From contig JAEBUN010000007.1 in the NCBI GenBank assembly GCA_023014365.1, positions 434,001 through 498,000 on the forward strand: 64,000 nucleotides of DNA, in the 5' to 3' direction. A program made the position numbers and the translations under genes. Within the stretch, counting starts at the first letter, position 1; each line of letters opens with the position of its first letter. Under the pieces are notes generated by a model, which saw only the letters and a list, made by a program, of their open reading frames with translations, did not search any database and had not been told where the DNA came from. This document shows positions 12,901 through 48,769 of the stretch, piece after piece. Origin of the DNA: Lepiota brunneoincarnata (Eukaryota; Basidiomycota; Agaricomycetes; Agaricales; Agaricaceae).

Positions 12901-13776
12901 CTCTCACTTCTTCCACTCATTGGGACAAGCCCTCGACATGAAACTACACTTCACTTCAGGCTACCACCCAGAAGGTGACAGACAGACAGAATGCACCAAC
13001 CAGACCCTGGAACAATATCTCCAGGTCTATTGTAACTACCAACAGGACAATTGGTCCAAATTACTACCACTAGCTGAGTTTGCTTACAACAATGCTCCTA
13101 GTGCCACCACCAGTATCTCCCTGTTCTTTGCTAATAAAGGATACTATCCAAACATTACAGTTCATCCTGACCACAACCTCACCTCCGCTCAGGCCCACTA
13201 TTTGCAGTTGATCTTGACGACCTACATACCACCTTGAAGTCGGAAATAGCGTTAGCCCAGCAACAATACCAGACCTCTGCTGACACCCACTGTGTCCCAG
13301 CTCCAGACTTCAAGGTTGGGCAAAAAGTGTTCATTAAAGCTCAGTTCTTCCGCACCACCTGTCCCTCCAAAAAACTCTCCAAAAAGTTCCTTGGACCCTA
13401 TGAGATCATTGCCCAAGCAAGTACCCACTCCTTCACCCTCTGACTCCCCAACTCCATGCATGGAGTACACCTAGTTTTCCATGTTTCTATGCTTGAACTG
13501 GTCACACCTAATACCATACTCACCCAATTGGACCTGCCACCTGTGTCAGTTTCTATTGACAGCAAACCTGAATACGAGATTGCTTGCATCATTGACTCAA
13601 AGATTGATTGGCACTGTGCATACAAACTCCTCTACAAAGTCTTTTGGTTATGTTATGAAGACACCGAAGAAGAGTCTTTGTGGTTACCAGCTACCAAACT
13701 TGAACATGCCATAGATCTAGTAGAGGCTTTCCATTCCTCTTACCCTGCTAAGCCTGGCCCCCTCCATTCACTCTGA
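9975..13776 (+). pseudogene. pol of gypsy-2a (broken)
   Basis: Protease (ALVDSGSTHCFVD near 10220), RT, RNase H (around 11800-12060), integrase HHCC (12490-12620), integrase core and the C-terminal chromodomain region (up to 13776) are all recognisable by comparison with the intact copy at 30696-34499. Nonsense codons break it into at least eight frames. The RT catalytic box has changed from YLDD to YLDN at about 11367-11378, so even the local fold is disabled. The internal polypurine copy CCCTAAAGGGGGG is retained at 12175-12187. Confidence 0.87.
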
Positions 13777-13853
13777 GTTTTCCACTGATCACCCATCACA
13801 CCAAGAAACAACAAGATTTATCAAAAAAAAAAACTACACAAACTACTACCAAA

Positions 13854-14629
13854 TTACTTATCATCTCCAGAGGGGCCAGGCAACTGTGCAGCATCATCTT
13901 CCATTAAGCCCCGCACCTCCTCCTCTGAGGTGGCCCTGACACTCTCCTCCAAACCCTCCATCTCTGTAACATTTCCACTTGACCAATTATAATCCACCTG
14001 CACCTCCCAATGCTGCAGTTGCTCATAATGGCCCACCACCTGCTCCACCTTGTCCACCTTCTCCCCCAATCAAGCGATGGACTGCTCAAGTTGTACCTCC
14101 AGGATGTTGACCTTCTTGATGGTCTCCTGGTGCTTTTCCTCAATGAGCCGTTTCAACTCTACAACACCCACTGATTAGTGTACATCACAATACAGGACTC
14201 CTCACTTACCCTCAAACTGTTGGCCTGACAACCTGCCAGTCCCGCTCAGCTCTGTCTCCTCTTGGCTTCCACATCATTTCTTCATTTTACTACACCGACA
14301 GCAACTCCTGGTGTTACTAAACCCCTATCAGTATGTATCCCAGAAAACTTTCAAAAATGACTCACTTGCCAGCGACCTCACACTGGACCCCATCTCACTT
14401 GCACCTCCAGCAGGGGTTCTCACCCCCAAATATGTTTGCATGGCCCTGTCGCGGGGCTGCCCTTGCCCTTGCTTTTCCCTTACCCCCTGTGTCCCTGGAG
14501 TCCTCTTTGCTCCTCCTCTTCCAACCTCTCGATTTCCAGCTGTTCCTGCTCCTCTCACTCAGCCTTCTCCCTCAGCAGTTGCACCTTGTGCTCTGTGGCA
14601 GTCAGTTGCCAGGATGGTTGTCTGCTCAT
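13854..14629 (-). pseudogene. Antisense accessory gene of gypsy-2a (decayed)
   Basis: This is the minus-strand counterpart of the gene at 41704-42789. The ATG is at 14627-14629 with a TATAAAAA-type box upstream (about 14678-14686). The first codons (MSRQPSWQLTA) match, but a TGA appears after about 20 codons. The C-terminal coiled-coil and acidic tail remain open as a 71-codon frame (13854-14069). Its presence in this old copy shows that the antisense gene and its promoter box are an ancestral part of the family. Confidence 0.8.
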
Positions 14630-14761
14630 GGGAGTATGGGGTTAAGTTGTGCTCTCCCAACTTGAACCAGTTCACCTGTTTTTATACCCCAGCAGAGTTT
14701 TCTGATGGGCCCTGGTCTAGACCACCTAAGGCCTTGAGGCTTGGCCCTAAAGGGGGGGCAC

Positions 14762-16722
14762 TGTCATATCCATGCCAAACCCAGAGCTTAACCATTATAC
14801 TTCAGCTTCTTGACTCCATGTGTGCTCCACATAACAACCCTCTGCCCTCTGACTTGGCTCCAACTTGCTCCGACCATAACCCATTGCCCCGATCATGCAA
14901 CCATCTCTGCACATGCCATGGTCACCTGACCCTCGGTGCTACTTTCCAGTTCTCCATTCTCCATCCATAACCAAGAGATGTTATCAGTCTCCATACCTGT
15001 ACCAGTCTCCATTCCATTTGTAATCCATTTGTAATCCGTTTGTAACCATATCAGTCTCCACTTCACTCCGTCTGTAGTCAGTACAAGTCATAGTTCATAA
15101 GACCAGTAGTATATATACCATAGGTACTTGGCTTGTACTCCTCAGTCTGATAATTGAATTGAGCAGTGGACCAGCTCCCTATTCTATATCCTCCTCTCTC
15201 TGCCTCACTCCGCTTTGGCCCTGACCTCCTGAAATACGGACTCAGACAGTAGGAGGGCACAGCACATAAGCTGAGGCCACAAGTCCAACCCCCCACCTGA
15301 AGTACTCTGCCTCGGTCCTGAAGTCTATGTACTGACTTTGCCCAGTCCCCTGGTAATATGCCGATTTCACAACTATACATGAATTCCATACTCCGGAACA
15401 ATTCTCTACATAGAATCATTGGCTATATCATTAAAGAACCCTATAGAGGATTGGTACTATGTCCCATAGTAGCCAGTTTGACTGAACTGAGGATATTCGA
15501 GCCTCGGGAGTGTTCAAACCAGCTCATTATCACTAAGCTTAGTGAACCAAGCTATCAGAACGCTCTCCGGAGGGATTCCGGACTTTACATAGCCTATCGA
15601 GTATACTCTGGTCGCATCAAGGGACCTTACAAGCAGTTTTCTGATGAACTCAGATTTGTTGGAACCTAAAGAATGTACATAGCAGCTGTCGCAGGGGTAT
15701 TACACCCATAGCGAGCCCAATAATGATGACTGGACCATGGAACGGAATGTCCAATGTTCGGGAGGTGACACCCGATGCCCAAAACCCTAGACATATCAAA
15801 GACTCATAATTAATGAGTGCTTTGTGGGTCCCGGCACCTTGGCATACTGCCTGACTGAGATTAATTACAACAGATCAAGGGATTGTACATATGCCATACA
15901 TTCTGATCATAATTGATCCAGAGGCTTAATGTGCTCATGTGGATGCAGAATAATGCAGATGAGCACAGAACACGTCTGGCTGGATTGCCATTTGTCAATC
16001 AGAGAAAAACCCGTAACCCAGGGCAAGGTAGAAATGCTGCCGAACCTTCCAAAATATTCTGCAGTACCTGTAACAATTAAGCTTATTGTTTTCTATTTCA
16101 TATTTACTATCTCTCGCATGTATCTAAACAATATAAATACGGTTGCGCTTGTTCGTGGAGAAGCAAGAAGTCTCACCCCCACTTCCACATGCAAGTCTGT
16201 GAACTGTGATCAAGAACAGTTTCAGAGGACTATTTAGTGTGCGTCGTTAAGTGTGATTTCTTTGGTCATCGACCAACCCAGAGACAGAGACAGAGAACAG
16301 AGTACAGAGTTTAGAGTTCCAGAGTGCTAGAGACAGAGACAGAGACAGAGAACAGAGTTCAGAGACCAGAGATCAGAGACTAGAGACCCCATGCTTTGAA
16401 TTGACAGGGATTGTCCTTTCACTGTTGCACCATATGGCTAAGATAACTTCAACGGCTGTTTGTTAACCTCTAAAAACACTATTCTCTTGAATTTTGCTGT
16501 CAGAATGCACCCCCAGAACACCCTAAAAGACGAAACTGTTCATTATCTATCTCATACTACTTGTATTAACTTAAGCTTATTGAATTTCGACTAAGCTTAG
16601 TGAGAACAAGCCATTTATCTATATTAAAACCCATGAACGTTTCCACCTTTTCACTGGTTACCTTATATCAAGGATACCATTCCGACCCTCCACTTCAGTC
16701 CCAATCCGCACTGGCTCTAACA
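14762..16722 (+). repeat. 3' LTR of gypsy-2a, split by E3a
   Basis: The LTR runs 14762-15353 and resumes at 16658-16722, ending CTCTAACA and followed by the target duplication GAGGC. It is preceded by the polypurine tract AAAGGGGGGGCAC. The interruption is the 1.3-kb element E3a. Confidence 0.9.
15354..16653 (+). mobile_element. E3a: 1.3-kb TG...CA element, probable solo LTR of an unseen family
   Basis: A 1300-bp insert in the gypsy-2a LTR is flanked by CTGG on both sides (15350-15353, 16654-16657). The same unit, 1308 bp, sits at 50410-51717 with a different 4-bp repeat, so the ends are well defined: the complete copy starts TGATACGCC, and both end CTTTTCA or CCTTTTCA. It has a TATA-like ATATAAATAC (16131-16140), a CAGAGA-type microsatellite (about 16275-16385), and AAGCTTAGTG palindromes. 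No transposase or RT is present. A long solo LTR fits the TG/CA ends best. A non-autonomous element is the alternative. Confidence 0.6.
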
Positions 16723-34560: not shown

Positions 34561-34776
34561 CTACCTGTCCGTATCGTTCCCAGAGGTGCGGGGCGGCGCC
34601 GCCGCATCCTCCATCATACCTCGCACCTCCTCTTCCGAAACGCCTCCGATGCTCTCCGACTCCTCCGACTCCTCCGTCTCCTCCGTCTCCGTAATACCCC
34701 TACTCGACCAGTTACCATCCAGTAACTGCGCCTTGCGCTCCGCCGCGGTTGGTTGTCGAGACGATTGGCTGCTCAT
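34561..34776 (-). CDS. Reduced antisense ORF of gypsy-2b (71 aa)
   Basis: This is a minus-strand frame between pol and the 3' LTR, with the same start (MSSQSSRQPTAAERKAQL) and same acidic C terminus (ASEEEV/VSEEEV-type, ending DTDR) as the 327-aa gene at 41704-42789. A large deletion removes the coiled-coil and the zinc cluster together with both introns, yet the frame is kept. A TATAAAAA box is retained upstream (34826-34833). It could be a translated short form or a remnant. It overlaps no sense gene; pol ends 61 bp away, tail to tail. Confidence 0.55.
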   Translation of the reverse strand: MSSQSSRQPTAAERKAQLLDGNWSSRGITETEETEESEESESIGGVSEEEVRGMMEDAAAPPRTSGNDTDR

Positions 34777-40920: not shown

Positions 40921-41571
40921 TGTTAGAGCCGGTGCGGGTCGGGACCGAAGCGGAGGGTCGGGGTGGTATCCTTGGTATAAGGTAACCGGGGGACAGGGCG
41001 AAGTCAGTACGTAGACTTCGGGACCGAGGCGGAGTACGTCGGGCGGGGGGTTGGACTTGCGGCCTCAGCTTATGTGCTGTGCCCTCCTACTGTCCTAGTC
41101 CGTATTTCAGGAAGTCGGAGCTGAAGCGGAGCAAGGCAGAAGAGAGGAGAGGATATGGAACAGGGAGCTGGTCCGCTGCTCGATTCGATTATCAGACTGA
41201 GGAGTACAAGCCAAGTACCTATGGTATATATACTACTGGCCTTACGAACTATGACTCGTACTGACTACGTGCGGAGTGAAGCGGAGACCCATATGGTTAC
41301 AAACGGATTACAAACGAAATGGAGACCGGTACGGGTATGGAGACTGGTAACGTATCTTGACTACGGACGGGAAATGGAGACGGGGAAATAGAGACAGCGA
41401 GGTTCAGGTGACCACAGCACGTGTGGAGGTGGTCGCGTGATCGGGGCAGTGGGTTGTGGTCGGAGTGAGTCGGGGCCGAGTCGGAGGGCAGAGGGTTGTT
41501 GTGTGGAACACACGTGGAGTCGAGAAGCCGAAGTTTAAGTGATTAGACTTATAGTTGGCATGGATATGACA
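40921..41571 (-). repeat. 3' LTR of gypsy-2c
   Basis: 651 bp; the minus strand ends CTCTAACA at 40921. The polypurine tract is at 41572-41588 (minus strand). Confidence 0.94.
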
Positions 41572-41646
41572 GTGCCCCCCCTTTAGGGCCGAGCCTCGAG
41601 GCCCTAGGCGGTCCAGACCGGGTCCATCGGAAGACATCCGCCCGAG

Positions 41647-41654
41647 TATAAAAA
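41647..41654 (+). promoter_or_regulatory. TATA box of the antisense gene
   Basis: TATAAAAA lies 50 bp upstream of the ATG at 41704 and points away from the 3' LTR, opposite to gag-pol. The equivalent box is kept in copies a and b on their opposite strands. Confidence 0.6.
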
Positions 41655-41703: not shown

Positions 41704-42789
41704 ATGAGCAGCCAATCGTCTCGACAACCAACCGCGGCGGAGCGCAAGGCGCAGTTAATGAGGGAAAAGGCGGAGCAGGAGGAGCGGATGCGGCTGGAGA
41801 TCGAGAGGTTGGAAGAGGAGGAACGGCGAGAGGAGGAACGGCGATTGGCGGTAGAGTGCCAAGAGGAAGAACGGCGACGGATGATTGAACTGCGTCAACG
41901 GCAAGCGGAGGAGCGGGCAAGGGAGCGACGGGCGGAAGAGATCAGGCGACAGCAAGAGGAAGCTGCTGAGGACGAACGTCGGGCGATCCGGGCCCGACTC
42001 GTCGCGATGACTACGACGGCTTCATCCAGCCGCCTGCCGGAGCAGCCTATGGAAGTCGACCATGAAGAGTCCGACCCAAATTACACGGGCGATGACGCGG
42101 CGAGGGACGAAGAGGAGGAGGAGGAGGAGGACTCCGAAGGTTCGGAGGTAAAGGGAAAGGGAAAAGGAAAGGCGAGGGCGGCCCCGCGGCGGGGCAACAA
42201 ACACGTATTCGGAGGCGATAACCTGTGCTGGAGATGTCAGCGGGATGAGGTCCGGTGCGAGATTGCCGGCGGGTAAGTAAATACAAGAGTTTCTGCGATG
42301 ATAATTGCTGACAAAGGCCCCAGCAACACTAGGAGTTGCCGACGGTGTAGCAAAATGAAGAAACGATGTGGGGGTCAAAAAGAGACGGAGCCGAGCGGAG
42401 CTGGAGGTTTGTCGGGCCAGCAATTCGAAGGTGAGTAAGGAATCCTGTATTATGATGGATGCCAATTGATGGACCTTGTAGAGTTGAAACGGCTCATCGA
42501 AGAAAGGCACCAGGAGACCGTCAAGAAAATCTACATCCTGGAGGTGCGAATTGAGTGGTCCATCGCTCGGTTGGGGGAAAAGGTCGACAAGATGGGGTCG
42601 CTTGCTGGCCGCTACGAGCAACTACGGCGTTGGGAGGCTCAGGTGGACGGAAATTGGTCGAGTGGAAATTTTTCGGAGACGGAGGGTTCGGAGGGGAGTG
42701 TCGGGCCCGCTTCGGAGGAGGAGGTGCAGGATTTGATGGAAGAAGTGAATGGGTCGCCCGGGCTCTCTGGAGACGACACCGATAGGTAG
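41704..42789 (+). CDS. Antisense spliced gene of gypsy-2c: coiled-coil protein with Zn2Cys6-type cluster (327 aa)
   Basis: It runs opposite to gag-pol, between pol and the 3' LTR. I infer three exons: 41704-42272, 42324-42430, 42482-42789. Both introns are 51 nt, start GTAAGT or GTGAGT and end CAG or TAG, with a CTGAC branch-like site in the first. Splicing keeps the frame and yields C-X2-C-X6-C-X9-C-X2-C-X6-C (CWRCQRDEVRC in exon 1, CRRCSKMKKRC in exon 2), the fungal Zn2Cys6 pattern. Before it lie a long Glu/Arg coiled coil (residues about 15-100) and an acidic patch. Exon 3 is a helical then acidic tail. DNA binding is inferred from the cluster. Its role in the element is unknown. Confidence 0.75.
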
Positions 42790-42858: not shown

Positions 42859-45800
42859 TCAAAGTGAGTGAAGAGGACCAGGCTTTGCAGGGTAAGAGGA
42901 ATGAAAAGCCTCTACGAGATCTATAGCATGTTCAAGCTCGGTGGCTGGCAACCACGAGGACTCTTCTTCAGTGTCTTCGTAACCTAACCAGATGACTTTA
43001 TAGAGGAGCTTGCACGCGCGGCGCCGATCGATCTTAGAGTCGACGATGCGGGCAATCTCGTATTCTGGTTCACCGTCAATGGAAACCGGCACGGGCGGCG
43101 GATCCGATCGGGCGGGTATGGTGTTAGGTGTGGCTGGTTCGAGCATGGAAACATGGAAGACTGGGTGTACTCCACGCATGGAGTTGGGAAGTCGGAGTGT
43201 AAGGGAGTGAGTACCTGCTTGTGCAATGATCTCATAAGGCCCAAGGTACTTTTCGGAGAGTTTTTTGGAGGGACGGGTGGTGCGGAAGAATTGGGCTTTC
43301 ACGAATACCTTTTGTCCAACCTTGAAGTCTGGGGCGGGGAGTCGGCGGGCGTCGGCGGAGGTCTGATAACGTTGCTGGGCTAGCGCTATTTCGGACTTCA
43401 AGGTGGTGTGTAGGTCGTCGAGGTCAACAGCAAAATGGCGGGCCCGAGCGGAGGCGAGATCGTGTTCAGGATGAACTGTGATGTTCGGATGGTATCCTTT
43501 ATTAGTGAAGAACGGGGAGATACCGGTGGTGGCACTAGGAGCGTTGTTGTAAGCGAACTCGGCTAGTGGTAGTAATTTGGACCAATTGTCCTGTTGGTAG
43601 TTACAGTAGACCCGAAGATATTGTTCGAGGGTCTGGTTGGTGCGTTCCGTCTGTCCGTCACCTTCTGGATGGTAGCCCGAAGTGAAATGTAACTTCATAT
43701 CGAGGGCTTGTCCCAATGAGCGGAAGAAGTGGGAGACGAATTCGGAGCCGCGGTCGGAGGTAACATGTTCGGGTACGCCGTGCTTGGAGAAGACGTGGAG
43801 GACGAATAGGCGGGCGAGGTCGGAGGAGGTGACGGTATCATAAGTCGGGATGAAGAGGGATTGCTTGGTGAGTCTGTCAACGATTACTAGGATGGCGTCG
43901 TAGCCGGAGGAGGCGGGGAGTTTTTCGATGAAGTCCATGGAGATTGAATTCCAAGGGCGTTCGGGAATGGGGAGTTGTTTGAGGAGACCGTAGGGACGGT
44001 GGCGCTGGGGTTTAGACCTCATACAGGTGACACAAGACTTACAGAAATCCTTGACGAAGGTGCGGACACTAGGCCAGGTGTATTCGCGCCGGATGAGTTC
44101 TAGCGTTTTGTTCTGACCGAAGTGTCCGGCTAGGACATGATCATGCTTGTACTGGAGGACCCGAAGTCGGAGATTGTCGGTGTCAGGGACGTAGATTCTG
44201 TCGTCTAGTAGAAGGAAACCTTTATCATTAACTGACCAACGGCCTTCTGGGCTAGCAAGGTGGGCGGAAGCGGTCGGATCCGCTGGTAGGGCGGCGAGGA
44301 TATCGCGGTGTAGCTGGTCGAGATCCATGACTACAGCTGCGCGAAGGGAAGGGGCGTAAAGAGTGGTGGCACGGACGGAGGCCGCGAGTTGTTCATGAGT
44401 GAACACAGGCCGGAAGTTGTGCGGGTTGACCAATGCATAGTCGCTATTCCCCCCTTTAGGGTAGACGTCCCATCGTCTAGTTAGGGCGTCAGGCTTGGTA
44501 CCGAGGCGGCCGGGTCGGAAACGGATGATGAGGTGGAACTGGGATAGGAACTCGGACCAATGAGCTTGGCGGCGAGTGAGGATTTTGGTGGTGCAGAAGT
44601 ATTCAAGGTTTTTGTGGTCGGTGACTACATCAATAGTAAGAGGGGCACCCTCAAGATAGTGCCGCCAGATACGAAAAGCCTCGAATATCGCCAGGAGTTC
44701 CTTGTCGTGGGTGTCATAATTAAGTTCGGCCGTGTTAAAGGTGCGGGAATGGAATGCAATGGGGTGAACCTCTCCGTCATCGGTGATGATAGAGAGGATA
44801 GCTGCAAGGGCGTAGTCGGAGGCGTCGGTCTCGACAATGATCTGAGCATCGGGGGCCCAAGGAGTGAGGACGGGGGCGGATATGAATGCTTCTTTCAGGG
44901 AACTGAAGGATTCGCGGCATTCGTCGGTGAAATTCCATTTCACATCTTTGCGGGTGAGGCAGGTGAGCGGAACGACGATGTCGGAGTAACCGTGAATGAA
45001 GCGACGGTAGAAATTGGCAAAACCTAAGAAGGACTGGATGTCCTTGACTTTCTTAGGTTCAGGCCACTCCTGGATGGTCTTGACCTTGGATTGGTCCATT
45101 CGGAGACCGTCGGGGGAAAGAATGTAGCCGAGGTATTCCACTGTGTCAGAGTGGAATTGGCATTTGTCGGGGCGGGCGTATAGGCCGTGTTGTCGGAGCC
45201 GCTTGAGGACCTCCTTGACTTGGTCACGATGGATACTATGATTGTCGGAGTATATCAGAATGTCGTCAAGGTAAATAGTAACGCAGACGTCGAGCATGTC
45301 CTTGAATATATCGTTCATGAACTGCTGGAAGGTGGCGGGGGCATTGGTGAGGCCGAAAGGCATAACCATCCATTCGAAGGAGCCGTAGCGGGTCCGAAAG
45401 GCGGTCTTCCATTCGTCGCCGTCAGCAACGCGGACTAGATGGTAAGCGTGACGGAGGTCGATTTTGGTATATACGCGAGCTTTGCGAGGGGAGTCTAAGA
45501 GGTCGGAGATGAGCGGAAGGGGGTAGCGATCCTTCTTGGTAATATGGTTGAGACCTCTAAAATCAACACATAAACGGAGGGAGCCGTCCTTTTTCTTGAC
45601 GAAGAGGACCGGGGCTCCATGAGGAGAAGTGGAGGGGCGAATGAAGCCAATAGATAAATGTTCGTCAATGAAATCACGTAGAGCTCCAAGCTCTGATTGT
45701 GAAAGGGAGTAAATGGTACCGACCGGAGGCTGACCGCCATCCTCTAGGTTAATCTGGAGGTCGTAAGGGCGGTGTGGAGCGAGTGTGTCAGCACGCGATT

Positions 45801-46662
45801 TACTGAAAACATCGGCGAACTCATGGTATTCCTCGGGGATGGACGAGAGGTCAGCCGGGTCATCGGAGACAGAAGAAGACGCGGCCGATGCGGAGGCGGC
45901 GGAAAGATTGATTTGGAATTGTTGGGAGCCAGGGAGCTTGGCAGCACGGATAAAGGCAGGAGCGTTTATCAAGGAGATGTGCGGTTTCGCAAGGGGGACA
46001 GATTGGGACGAGGTCCCGGACAGGGGTGGTGAACCTAGGTCAGGAGAGTCAGGGGCGGCCATAGGCGGAGCCGATGCGGGTGCGACGCAGGTAGAGACGG
46101 AAGCAGGATTCTTGAGTAGGGATGGCCGGAAAGTAATACTGCCCAAAGCCCAGTCAATCAACGGATTGTAGCGGGTGAGCCAGTTGTGTCCTAAGACCAC
46201 AGAACAGGAAGAGTCGAGCCGGGTGACATAAGTGTCCAAAATGATAGATTCACCGGAGGGGAAAGATACAGGCAGTTGCGCAAGCTCCGTAATGTAGGCA
46301 TTTGAGGTCCCATCAAATAACCAAAGTTCAATAGCCGGAATGGACGAGGTTGGAATACTATGAGAACAAACAAAAGATGAGTCCATAAAACAGTGAGTAG
46401 AACCACTATCAACAAGGGCTTTGAAAGGAGAAAGAGAAGAGAAATCAGAACTAACTACATTGTCCGTTGTAGAAATCGGGTCCGAAGCGGAGAGTACGGA
46501 AGCGGAGACAGAAGATACAGAAGTAATTAAAGGAGAAGTTAATGTGATATGAAAGGAGTTCGGGTCGGAAAGAGCGGACGCATTGAGACGGAAACTCTCT
46601 GGAGCACAGCAGAGTTCAATGCGATCCTCAGTCTGTGCAGAGGCCTGAGGACCGCCGACTAT
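42859..46662 (-). CDS. pol: pol of gypsy-2c (about 1267 aa), intact
   Basis: It is the same length as copy b and open throughout in the -1 frame relative to gag. Protease DSGSTHCF, RT YLDDILIYSD, RNase H ETDASDYALAA, integrase HDHVLAGH/CKSCVTC and DDE residues, and the chromodomain are all present. It differs from copy b by a scatter of substitutions. Its stop is 69 bp from the end of the convergent antisense gene. Confidence 0.94.
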   Translation of the reverse strand: MVGGPQASAQTEDRIELCCAPESFRLNASALSDPNSFHITLTSPLITSVSSVSASVLSASDPISTTDNVVSSDFSSLSPFKALVDSGSTHCFMDSSFVCSHSIPTSSIPAIELWLFDGTSNAYITELAQLPVSFPSGESIILDTYVTRLDSSCSVVLGHNWLTRYNPLIDWALGSITFRPSLLKNPASVSTCVAPASAPPMAAPDSPDLGSPPLSGTSSQSVPLAKPHISLINAPAFIRAAKLPGSQQFQINLSAASASAASSSVSDDPADLSSIPEEYHEFADVFSKSRADTLAPHRPYDLQINLEDGGQPPVGTIYSLSQSELGALRDFIDEHLSIGFIRPSTSPHGAPVLFVKKKDGSLRLCVDFRGLNHITKKDRYPLPLISDLLDSPRKARVYTKIDLRHAYHLVRVADGDEWKTAFRTRYGSFEWMVMPFGLTNAPATFQQFMNDIFKDMLDVCVTIYLDDILIYSDNHSIHRDQVKEVLKRLRQHGLYARPDKCQFHSDTVEYLGYILSPDGLRMDQSKVKTIQEWPEPKKVKDIQSFLGFANFYRRFIHGYSDIVVPLTCLTRKDVKWNFTDECRESFSSLKEAFISAPVLTPWAPDAQIIVETDASDYALAAILSIITDDGEVHPIAFHSRTFNTAELNYDTHDKELLAIFEAFRIWRHYLEGAPLTIDVVTDHKNLEYFCTTKILTRRQAHWSEFLSQFHLIIRFRPGRLGTKPDALTRRWDVYPKGGNSDYALVNPHNFRPVFTHEQLAASVRATTLYAPSLRAAVVMDLDQLHRDILAALPADPTASAHLASPEGRWSVNDKGFLLLDDRIYVPDTDNLRLRVLQYKHDHVLAGHFGQNKTLELIRREYTWPSVRTFVKDFCKSCVTCMRSKPQRHRPYGLLKQLPIPERPWNSISMDFIEKLPASSGYDAILVIVDRLTKQSLFIPTYDTVTSSDLARLFVLHVFSKHGVPEHVTSDRGSEFVSHFFRSLGQALDMKLHFTSGYHPEGDGQTERTNQTLEQYLRVYCNYQQDNWSKLLPLAEFAYNNAPSATTGISPFFTNKGYHPNITVHPEHDLASARARHFAVDLDDLHTTLKSEIALAQQRYQTSADARRLPAPDFKVGQKVFVKAQFFRTTRPSKKLSEKYLGPYEIIAQAGTHSLTLRLPNSMRGVHPVFHVSMLEPATPNTIPARSDPPPVPVSIDGEPEYEIARIVDSKIDRRRACKLLYKVIWLGYEDTEEESSWLPATELEHAIDLVEAFHSSYPAKPGPLHSL

Positions 46663-48065
46663 TTTTCCGAGCTCGGGAGAGCCGGCGCATCTGTCTCGGG
46701 GAGCTGAGCCTGTCGGCCTTTAGCCTTGGCATCAGGGAATTTTTTCTTGTCGCAGTTAGCAGCCCTGTGATTGGGATCTGCGCAGACAAGGCAGAGGTTA
46801 TTGTCGAAACGTCGTTGACGTTCCTCGGGGGTTAATTTACCGTCCTTACCAAGTTTACTAGTAAGGTCGGACTTTGGCGGGGCCGATTTCTGACCGGCGG
46901 ACGGGTTGGGCAGATTGCCCTTGAAGATGTTATTACTGGGGGTGCTGCCTTTGTTGTTACTGTTGGCAGGCTTGGCGGCAGGTTGATGGGTTGTCGCGGT
47001 GGAAGGGGATGGGTTGCCTCCAGGTTTCCTAGAGGCGGTCGGGTCCGAAGCGGCTTTGGCGCGGGCCTTCTCGCGTTGGCGTTCCCAGTAGCGAGCATCG
47101 ATCTTCATCGCTGCTGCTCGCATTTCGATGAAGGTGTCGGGCTTGCCGTCGGGCCGATTGGACAGAATGTCCTGGATGCGGTCGGGGAGGCCTTTGTAGT
47201 AGCGGTGACAGAATACCTCATCACCCCAGCGGAGTTGGCCGGCCAGACAGAGAAAGTCGACGTTGTAGACGGCAATCTTTTCGTCATAGCGCATTCGGAG
47301 GGAGTCAAGCTGCTCAGCAGCTTCTCCGGTCGGATCCGCGGGACCGAAATTGGTCTGCAGTTCCAGGGTGAACTGATCCCAGTCCTCGATCCAATCGTGC
47401 ATTATTCCGTGGTTGTCGGCCTCGTCGAGGCCGATTTCGAAGTGTTGCTGTGCCACGCCTGTGAGGTATGTCAACGCGAAGTTGACCTTGGTGGCGGGGA
47501 TAGCGAACTGGGCCAGGTTAGTACGGAAATAGAGCCGACATTGGAAGAGGAAGGGTTTGAGTTTGGCGGGGTCGGAACCTGTAAAGATGTCAGGTTCGCG
47601 AGCTTTGGTACGGGGAGATCTAGGAGGCTGTGGGGCTTGAGAGTTCCCACGGCCGTCCATTTGGTCGGCTATGCGTTGGAAAACTCGGAGTATGAGTCTA
47701 TCATGGTCGTCTCGGGTGTTGCCAGGTGGGATGTTGTTGTTGTTGTCGCCGTTGTCTGATGGTTCATCGTCGCCCGGGGGCCCGTCCCCATTGTCAGGGT
47801 AGTCGTCGGGATCACCAGGGTCGCTGGGATCAGGATTGGGGTCGGGGCCGTCGTCGGGGCCGTCGGGAGTCCGGAATACTGAAGGTTGTATATCTTCAGA
47901 GAAACGGTCTGGGGTCGAGGGTGCAATCGATTGTTGGTGAGAGCGAGAAGCCCTCGGGGAGTCGGGTTGCAGTTCCTCGGAAGGAGGTTGTCAAGTGATG
48001 CGTTTGCTACGGCGAGCGGCTGGAGTTACCAGAGTGCGAGTACGGGTAACTGTTCGAGAGACCAT
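46659..48065 (-). pseudogene. gag: gag of gypsy-2c with a single nonsense codon
   Basis: It has the same start (MVSRTVTRT at 48065) and end as the intact 466-aa gag. A CGA-to-TGA change at 47991-47993 stops it after about 24 codons. The rest, including the capsid domain and the zinc knuckle CLVCADPNHRAANC, is open (46659-47660 from an internal Met). Otherwise it is well preserved, so this copy lost function recently. Confidence 0.88.
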
Positions 48066-48118: not shown

Positions 48119-48769
48119 TGTTAGAGCCGGTGCGGGTCGGGACCGAAGCGGAGGGTCGGGGTGGTATCCTTGGTATAAGGTAACCGGGGGACAGGGCGAA
48201 GTCAGTACGTAGACTTCGGGACCGAGGCGGAGTACGTCGGGCGGGGGGTTGGACTTGCGGCCTCAGCTTATGTGCTGTGCCCTCCTACTGTCCTAGTCCG
48301 TATTTCAGGAAGTCGGAGCCGAAGCGGAGCGAGGCAGAAGAGAGGAGAGGATATGGAACAGGGAGCTGGTCCGCTGCTCAATTCGATTATCAGACTGAGG
48401 AGTACAAGCCAAGTACCTACGGTATATATACTACTGGCCTTACAAACTATGACTCGTACTGACTACGTGCGGAGTGAAGCGGAGACCCATATGGTTACAA
48501 ACGGATTACAAACGAAATGGAGACCGGTACGGGTATGGAGACTGGTAACGTATCTTGACTACGGACGGGAAATGGAGACGGGGAAATAGAGACAGCGAGG
48601 TTCAGGTGACCACGGCACGTGTGGAGGTGGTCGCGTGATCGGGGCAGTGGGTTGCGGTCGGAGTGAGTCGGGGCCGAGTTGGAGGGCAGAGGGTTGTTGT
48701 GTGGAACACATGTGGAGTCGAGAAGCCGAAGTTTAAGTGATTAGACTTATAGTTGGCATGGATATGACA
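48119..48769 (-). repeat. 5' LTR of gypsy-2c
   Basis: 651 bp. The primer-site complement AGTCTGATAAT follows on the internal side (near 48106-48116), matching the ATTATCAGACT in the LTR on this strand. Confidence 0.94.

Follow-up and report, generated by a model that had tools for sequence, protein, structure and literature searches.

Within the window, the 64,000-nucleotide stretch of Lepiota brunneoincarnata DNA analysed here, a Ty3 chromovirus (copy c) lies on the minus strand between a 5′ LTR at 48119–48769 and a 3′ LTR at 40921–41571. Each LTR is 651 nt long, the two differ at 9 positions, and the TSD, seen beyond the 3′ LTR, is AGTGT. The polypurine tract of the sense strand (41575–41585, minus strand) adjoins the 3′ LTR. 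The gag frame (46659–47990, minus strand, stop to stop) overlaps the frame of pol (42859–46386, minus strand), in which a Pfam search identified RVT_1 (reverse transcriptase), RNase H, integrase and Chromo domains. The Chromo match (PF00385) scored 30.6 bits with a cut-off of 25.1, and copy c has both the Ty3 order of pol and the integrase chromodomain that characterize chromoviruses.

Structure of the antisense gene

We identified a gene at 41704–42789 on the plus strand, opposite in direction to pol and located between pol and the 3′ LTR, which is the position that defines aORF-3R genes. Exon 1 (41704–42272) encodes an E/R-rich stretch, an acidic linker, a basic patch and the first CX2CX6C half of a six-cysteine cluster. 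Intron 1 (42273–42323, 51 nt, GTAAGT..CAG) divides the two halves of the cluster, and exon 2 (42324–42430) encodes the second CX2CX6C half (CRRCSKMKKRC) and a linker. After intron 2 (42431–42481, 51 nt, GTGAGT..TAG), exon 3 (42482–42789) encodes a long predicted helix and an acidic tail and ends with the stop codon TAG. The spliced frame encodes 327 aa, and the codons of the cluster (residues 175–205) extend over 42226–42369 on the plus strand with intron 1 inside. A TATAAAAA box is positioned at 41647–41654 (plus strand), 57 nt before the ATG, and TATAAA is present at this place in 63/66 loci. The sequence-only reading had proposed an antisense gene in this interval with two 51-nt introns and a 327-aa product, and the sequence, the reading frame and the selection tests described below agree with it. 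Its TATA box is likewise conserved, at a distance corrected from the 50 nt that it had given.

A total of 139 combinations of GT-AG introns leave the frame of the antisense gene open, and an open frame alone is therefore no proof of introns. The predicted pair is favored because its splice sites are kept across the 66 loci. At intron 1 the donor reads GTAAGT or GTGAGT in 65/66 and the acceptor TAG or CAG in 66/66; at intron 2 the donor starts with GT in 65/66 and the acceptor reads TAG in 65/66. Introns diverge more than exons between groups of loci, as in the comparison of L001 with L027 (29/101 vs 150/984 sites). Given the life cycle of the element, an intron in antisense orientation would survive retrotransposition because splicing of the sense genomic RNA cannot remove it. 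A sense-strand gene in the same interval was considered and rejected, as the longest sense frame differs in frame between groups (six loci examined).

Copies in the genome and selection on the protein

The 55.6-Mb, 95-contig genome is probably that of an agaricomycete by its domain content, as DUF6534, a family typical of Agaricomycetes, has 31 matches, 27 of them above the cut-off. We searched this genome for copies of the antisense gene. The best 40 of 198 candidates from the DNA search were scored, all with at least 80% identity, and scoring the best 122 of 332 candidates from the protein search gave at least 189 matches. We used 68 loci, two of which (L031 and L037) repeat others (L017 and L019), yielding 66 distinct loci. 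All were picked by their similarity to the antisense gene (8 by hand among less similar rows), and because of this choice the conservation over the 66 loci is biased upwards. Loci were thus recruited through having the gene, and gene-free elements were counted solely as the type of copy b described below. An LTR is located upstream of the antisense gene in 68/68 loci, and pol is located downstream and opposite to it in 67/68, the stretch around L075 ending before pol. The same exon structure is found in several diverged lineages. The genome-wide search, which the sequence-only reading had named as a check, thus finds the gene in many copies.

Copies a and b in the window had been said to share the start, the C-terminus and the TATA box. 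Copy a (13765–14778, minus strand) is a diverged gene copy with a big deletion that cuts exon 1 to 264 of 569 nt. It has the ATG and the TATA box and, beyond the claim, all six cysteines and the GT and AG of both introns, but its aligned stop reads TTG. Its LTRs are ∼17% apart (119/698 compared columns, with approximate coordinates). Copy b retains only the start and the acidic tail of the gene.

The ATG is kept in 66/66 loci. TAG occupies the aligned stop in 66/66, and in two of these (L069 and L070) the frame ends slightly earlier. Each of the six cluster cysteines is present in 66/66 loci, while the non-cluster Cys52 is a cysteine in just 2/57 loci in which this codon is present. Indel runs are multiples of three in 100/108 cases within exons and in 9/102 within introns, counts in which runs inherited by related copies enter repeatedly. 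For exons 1 and 2 of L001 and L019, pN/pS is 0.18 (Fisher p 7e-32); four-fold sites agree as to direction, with 37/79 differing against 50/450 sites at codon positions 1 and 2.

Among 30 loci, dN/dS between groups was 0.13 (A–C1), 0.30 (A–C2), 0.39 (A–B), 0.15 (B–C1), 0.23 (B–C2) and 0.18 (C1–C2). Within groups it was 0.38 (A), 0.28 (C2) and 0.82 (C1; five copies, 10 pairs). These ratios come from a simple Nei-Gojobori count, which may overstate dS. Four pairs of loci provided a frame control, for which the frames expected from splicing are +0 (exon 1), +1 (exon 2) and +2 (exon 3). The expected frame had the lowest dN/dS of the six frames in 9 of 12 exon-by-pair comparisons, one of them a tie, to two decimals, with a reverse frame. 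The three exceptions (exon 3 of L001–L019 and exons 1 and 2 of L001–L018) rest on one to eight changes. The runner-up frames in exon 1 are the reverse frames with the same wobble position, as expected.

The cluster (residues 173–206) had the lowest omega of four segments in all eight pairs compared, which are not independent of one another. Its omega was 0.04–0.08 in six pairs; the other two values, 0.26 (L001–L018) and 0 (L018–L027), stem from two changes each. In the same eight pairs omega was 0.03–0.08 for pol and 0.14–0.39 for the whole antisense gene, and pol is thus the more constrained. Judged from sequence comparisons of this kind, the antisense gene is a real gene whose protein sequence is under purifying selection. 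The dN/dS test that the sequence-only reading had suggested comes out in favor of the gene between groups, group C1 standing apart within groups.

These data bear on two alternatives. A captured gene that hitchhikes in the element without a function for it would account for the 21/66 loci with a frame shorter than 300 codons (at least 300 are kept in 45/66), for the high ratio within C1 and for the amplification of a derivative that lacks the cluster. The low between-group ratios disfavor such a hitchhiker, the exon structure shared by several diverged lineages argues against it as well, and we consider it improbable. The antisense direction alone would yield an effect of the transcript itself, which could form double-stranded RNA or interfere with the sense transcript, a possibility named for plant elements in the part of PMC7264820 that was available. 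However, the codon-level selection, the in-frame indels and the six invariant cysteines indicate that the protein sequence is selected, making an effect of the transcript alone highly improbable.

The cysteine cluster and predicted helices

The consensus spacing of Zn2Cys6 clusters is CX2CX6CX5-12CX2CX6-8C, and the basic, DNA-contacting half, marked by a PROSITE-type signature, is normally the first. The cluster of the antisense gene has the spacing CX2CX6C-X9-CX2CX6C, with intron 1 between the halves. The whole spacing fits the consensus in 65/66 loci, some of which have a stop inside the cluster, and is lacking in L076. Where this spacing is present, the basic signature falls in the second half (65/65 loci) and never in the first (0/65). 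For comparison, 4 of 8 host loci had a full cluster, and the signature was in the first half in 4/4.

The whole 327-aa protein matched no Pfam family at E values up to 5. The isolated cluster matched a single Pfam family, PF00172, with scores of 14.5 bits (copy c) and 16.8 bits (L022), under the curated cut-off of 21 bits. In the best alignments, residues 29–46 of the copy c probe (second half) are matched to profile positions 1–18, and residues 1–19 of the L022 probe (first half) to positions 16–34. A probe with the halves swapped aligned as one stretch over profile positions 1–31, and its score was no higher (12.9 vs 14.5 bits). The cluster is Zn2Cys6-like, apparently with its halves swapped, and not a member of PF00172. 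Hence the label "Zn2Cys6-type" of the sequence-only reading is sound as to exact spacing and invariant cysteines and fails as to the Pfam threshold and the place of the basic half; the Pfam comparison it had proposed singles out the expected family for the isolated cluster, below threshold, and no family for the whole protein. A PDB sequence search with the whole protein found no relative, and no kin were found in an Rfam search of the window or in a search of viral contigs.

A cysteine cluster together with a basic patch could also bind RNA, and the product might be a nucleic-acid chaperone or a Rev-like factor for RNA export or packaging whose cluster binds the RNA of the element. The available part of PMC7264820 points to retroviral accessory proteins as precedents. 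This reading is quite unlikely, as the DNA-binding Zn2Cys6 signature agrees with both the spacing and the basic second half, and the sole Pfam match, a weak one, is PF00172.

The linker and tail are acidic (charges −16 and −11) and the basic patch has a charge of +7. The N-terminal region had been described as a long coiled coil, which is not upheld: this E/R-rich stretch is helix-like and its heptads are not significant (p 0.30). Heptads are weak in the stretch that follows the cluster (p 0.049, the best of five stretches and uncorrected; p 0.13 for its inner part). AlphaFold2 predicts for exon 3 alone a helix over residues 2–60 (59 residues), with block pLDDT of 90–97 for the first 40 residues and mostly low confidence in the tail (mean pLDDT 73.7, pTM 0.37).

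Exchange of parts, gene-minus elements and a candidate regulator

We compared mean divergence between groups along the element (57 loci). Groups A and B differ by 0.025 in the LTR, 0.019 in exons 1–2, 0.277 in exon 3 and 0.046 in pol, and groups A and C1 differ by 0.130, 0.231, 0.011 and 0.064 in the same segments. In both comparisons the divergence switches at ∼42354–42414, between the cluster and the putative dimer helix. By this pattern, group A, which includes copy c, is a chimera of a B-type LTR and putative DNA-binding part with a C1-type putative dimer helix, tail and pol end, and one recombination giving rise to group A explains both comparisons. The LTR and the putative DNA-binding part travelled together in this chimeric lineage, a point in favor of a regulator. 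Such a breakpoint may have been favored if the regulator is matched to its LTR, and plain physical linkage gives the same pattern.

The exchange also bears on a role in integration, in which the product would be a nuclear accessory factor that, jointly with the chromodomain integrase, anchors the integration complex on chromatin or at sites in DNA. The basic patch and DNA-binding-like cluster, the chromodomain in pol and the long predicted helix, available for a dimer or for partner binding, are consistent with such a factor. Against it, exons 1–2 moved with the LTR and not with pol in the single exchange observed, and elements that have lost the gene continue to multiply, although such a loss could be made good by help in trans. 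We regard an integration factor as unlikely.

Copy b (34561–34776, minus strand) is an in-frame deletion derivative of 71 aa, in which the first ∼18 codons are joined in frame to the acidic tail; the helix and the cluster are absent. Its 216 bases occur at four places with ∼100% identity, the others being G000:C52:12212, G000:C52:28928 and G000:C25:79609. Three of the four have clear and distinct TSDs (GACAC for copy b, TAACA and CAAAG), and the fourth, on contig 25, has one LTR end within the stretches examined. The LTRs of copy b differ at 2/651 positions. Elements without the cluster have moved recently, and the antisense gene is therefore dispensable in cis. Its role may be one in trans or one of restraint on the element, and the spread of gene-minus elements leans slightly toward repression over activation.

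We infer a route in which the gene would be transcribed in antisense direction from a TATA promoter of its own, next to the 3′ LTR, and spliced in vivo. The product, which comprises the E/R-rich stretch and acidic linker, the basic patch, the apparently half-swapped Zn2Cys6-like cluster, the putative dimer helix and the acidic tail, would enter the nucleus by means of the basic patch, bind zinc and DNA through the cluster and dimerize through the exon-3 helix. The dimer would then act in trans, positively or negatively, on transcription of its own element family via the LTR or adjacent DNA. That this spliced antisense accessory gene encodes a trans-acting, DNA-binding feedback regulator of its own element family is, in our judgment, somewhat more probable than not. 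The multiplication of the cluster-less derivative counts against a regulator, as does the chance that the linkage of the LTR and exons 1–2, which one recombination accounts for, is only physical. The empty Pfam and PDB searches with the whole protein, the stronger constraint on pol and the 21/66 loci with shorter frames also weigh against it. A fuller version, in which the element has its own transcription factor with a half-swapped Zn2Cys6 cluster, the DNA-binding part travels with the LTR that it recognizes, and elements that shed the gene are cheaters on an independent HBZ-like circuit, is tentative and rather doubtful. CCGA/TCGG was tried as a target motif in the LTR and dropped: it exceeds shuffles in 5/5 LTRs (p 0.002–0.042), and its 13 occurrences per 651 nt in the LTR compare with 6–14 in gag-pol windows.

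The proposed feedback would be comparable to that of the antisense protein HBZ of HTLV-1, a bZIP-type regulator of the LTR whose transcript is spliced. HBZ, an antisense-coded nuclear protein according to the available part of PMC11963269, resembles the product described here as an antisense-coded protein of an LTR element whose nuclear role, in our case, is predicted. The two differ in having a bZIP and a zinc cluster, and the antisense-gene protein has no bZIP match in Pfam up to E 5; the resemblance is one of convergence, not kinship. Gal4-type Zn2Cys6 factors (PF00172) share the six cysteines with exact spacing, a predicted helix after the cluster and an acidic tail. Unlike in these factors, the cluster of the antisense gene scores below the cut-off, has the basic signature in its second half and lies in the middle of the protein.

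The sequence-only reading knew of no such gene in fungal chromoviruses, a claim that goes too far in view of the gene brtn of Boty in Botrytis cinerea. As far as the cited parts of the sources go, brtn (Boty/BcGypsy1; Zhao et al. 2011, as cited) is encoded antisense in the interval from pol to the 3′ LTR (PMC7264820), the same place and orientation in a fungal Ty3 element. The gag-pol of Boty is said to contain a CHROMO domain and to be accompanied by brtn-106 (PMC4227169). The comparison is by description only, and the cited descriptions mention no introns. Excerpts from two further papers report that brtn is absent from the latest B05.10 genome annotation (PMC8365987) and that a Monilinia transcript is similar to truncated Pol and BRTN (PMC5987419). 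The plant aORF-3R genes (Grande gene23, RIRE2, Retand TRP28 and PvRetro13) have the same place and orientation in the passages available; there, gene23 has its own promoter, a nuclear or DNA-binding role is suspected for plant aORF-3R (PMC7264820, PMC11963269) and a regulatory role is proposed for Retand TRP28 proteins (PMC11963269). Retand, unlike copy c, belongs to a non-chromovirus lineage according to a published abstract, and TRP28 and SMC are the domains named for plant aORF-3R proteins, in contrast to the zinc-cluster-like motif found here. The word "intron" is absent from the main text of PMC7264820 and PMC11963269, and none of the open-licence papers among the matches listed announced, in its title or the start of its abstract, a fungal element with an antisense zinc-cluster gene. 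As far as these searches extend, a recognizable cluster, introns and measured selection are apparently new among antisense genes.

The consulted part of PMC7264820 states that the function of antisense accessory genes of LTR retrotransposons is not known and that their proteins have no clear similarity to others described, except for SMC and TRP28 domains in two. A recognizable, selected DNA-binding-like cluster in a multi-copy element with natural gene-minus derivatives makes the question of function testable in a fungus.

Some features of the elements lie outside the antisense gene. The gag and pol frames of copy c, taken from stop to stop, overlap by 61 nt at 46659–46719 (minus strand) in different frames, as programmed frameshifting would need, and codon 25, counted from the first gag ATG (start near 48065), is a stop. 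All LTR-LTR differences are transitions (9/9 in copy c, 2/2 in copy b), a pattern suggestive of a RIP-like process or of methylated-cytosine deamination. The LTR of L027 changes at about base 250 to other sequence that begins with TGTTATCAG and ends with GGGTAACA, like an inserted solo LTR of another family. An open stretch of 307 codons, from stop to stop, runs antisense to gag at 46836–47759 on the plus strand of the window.
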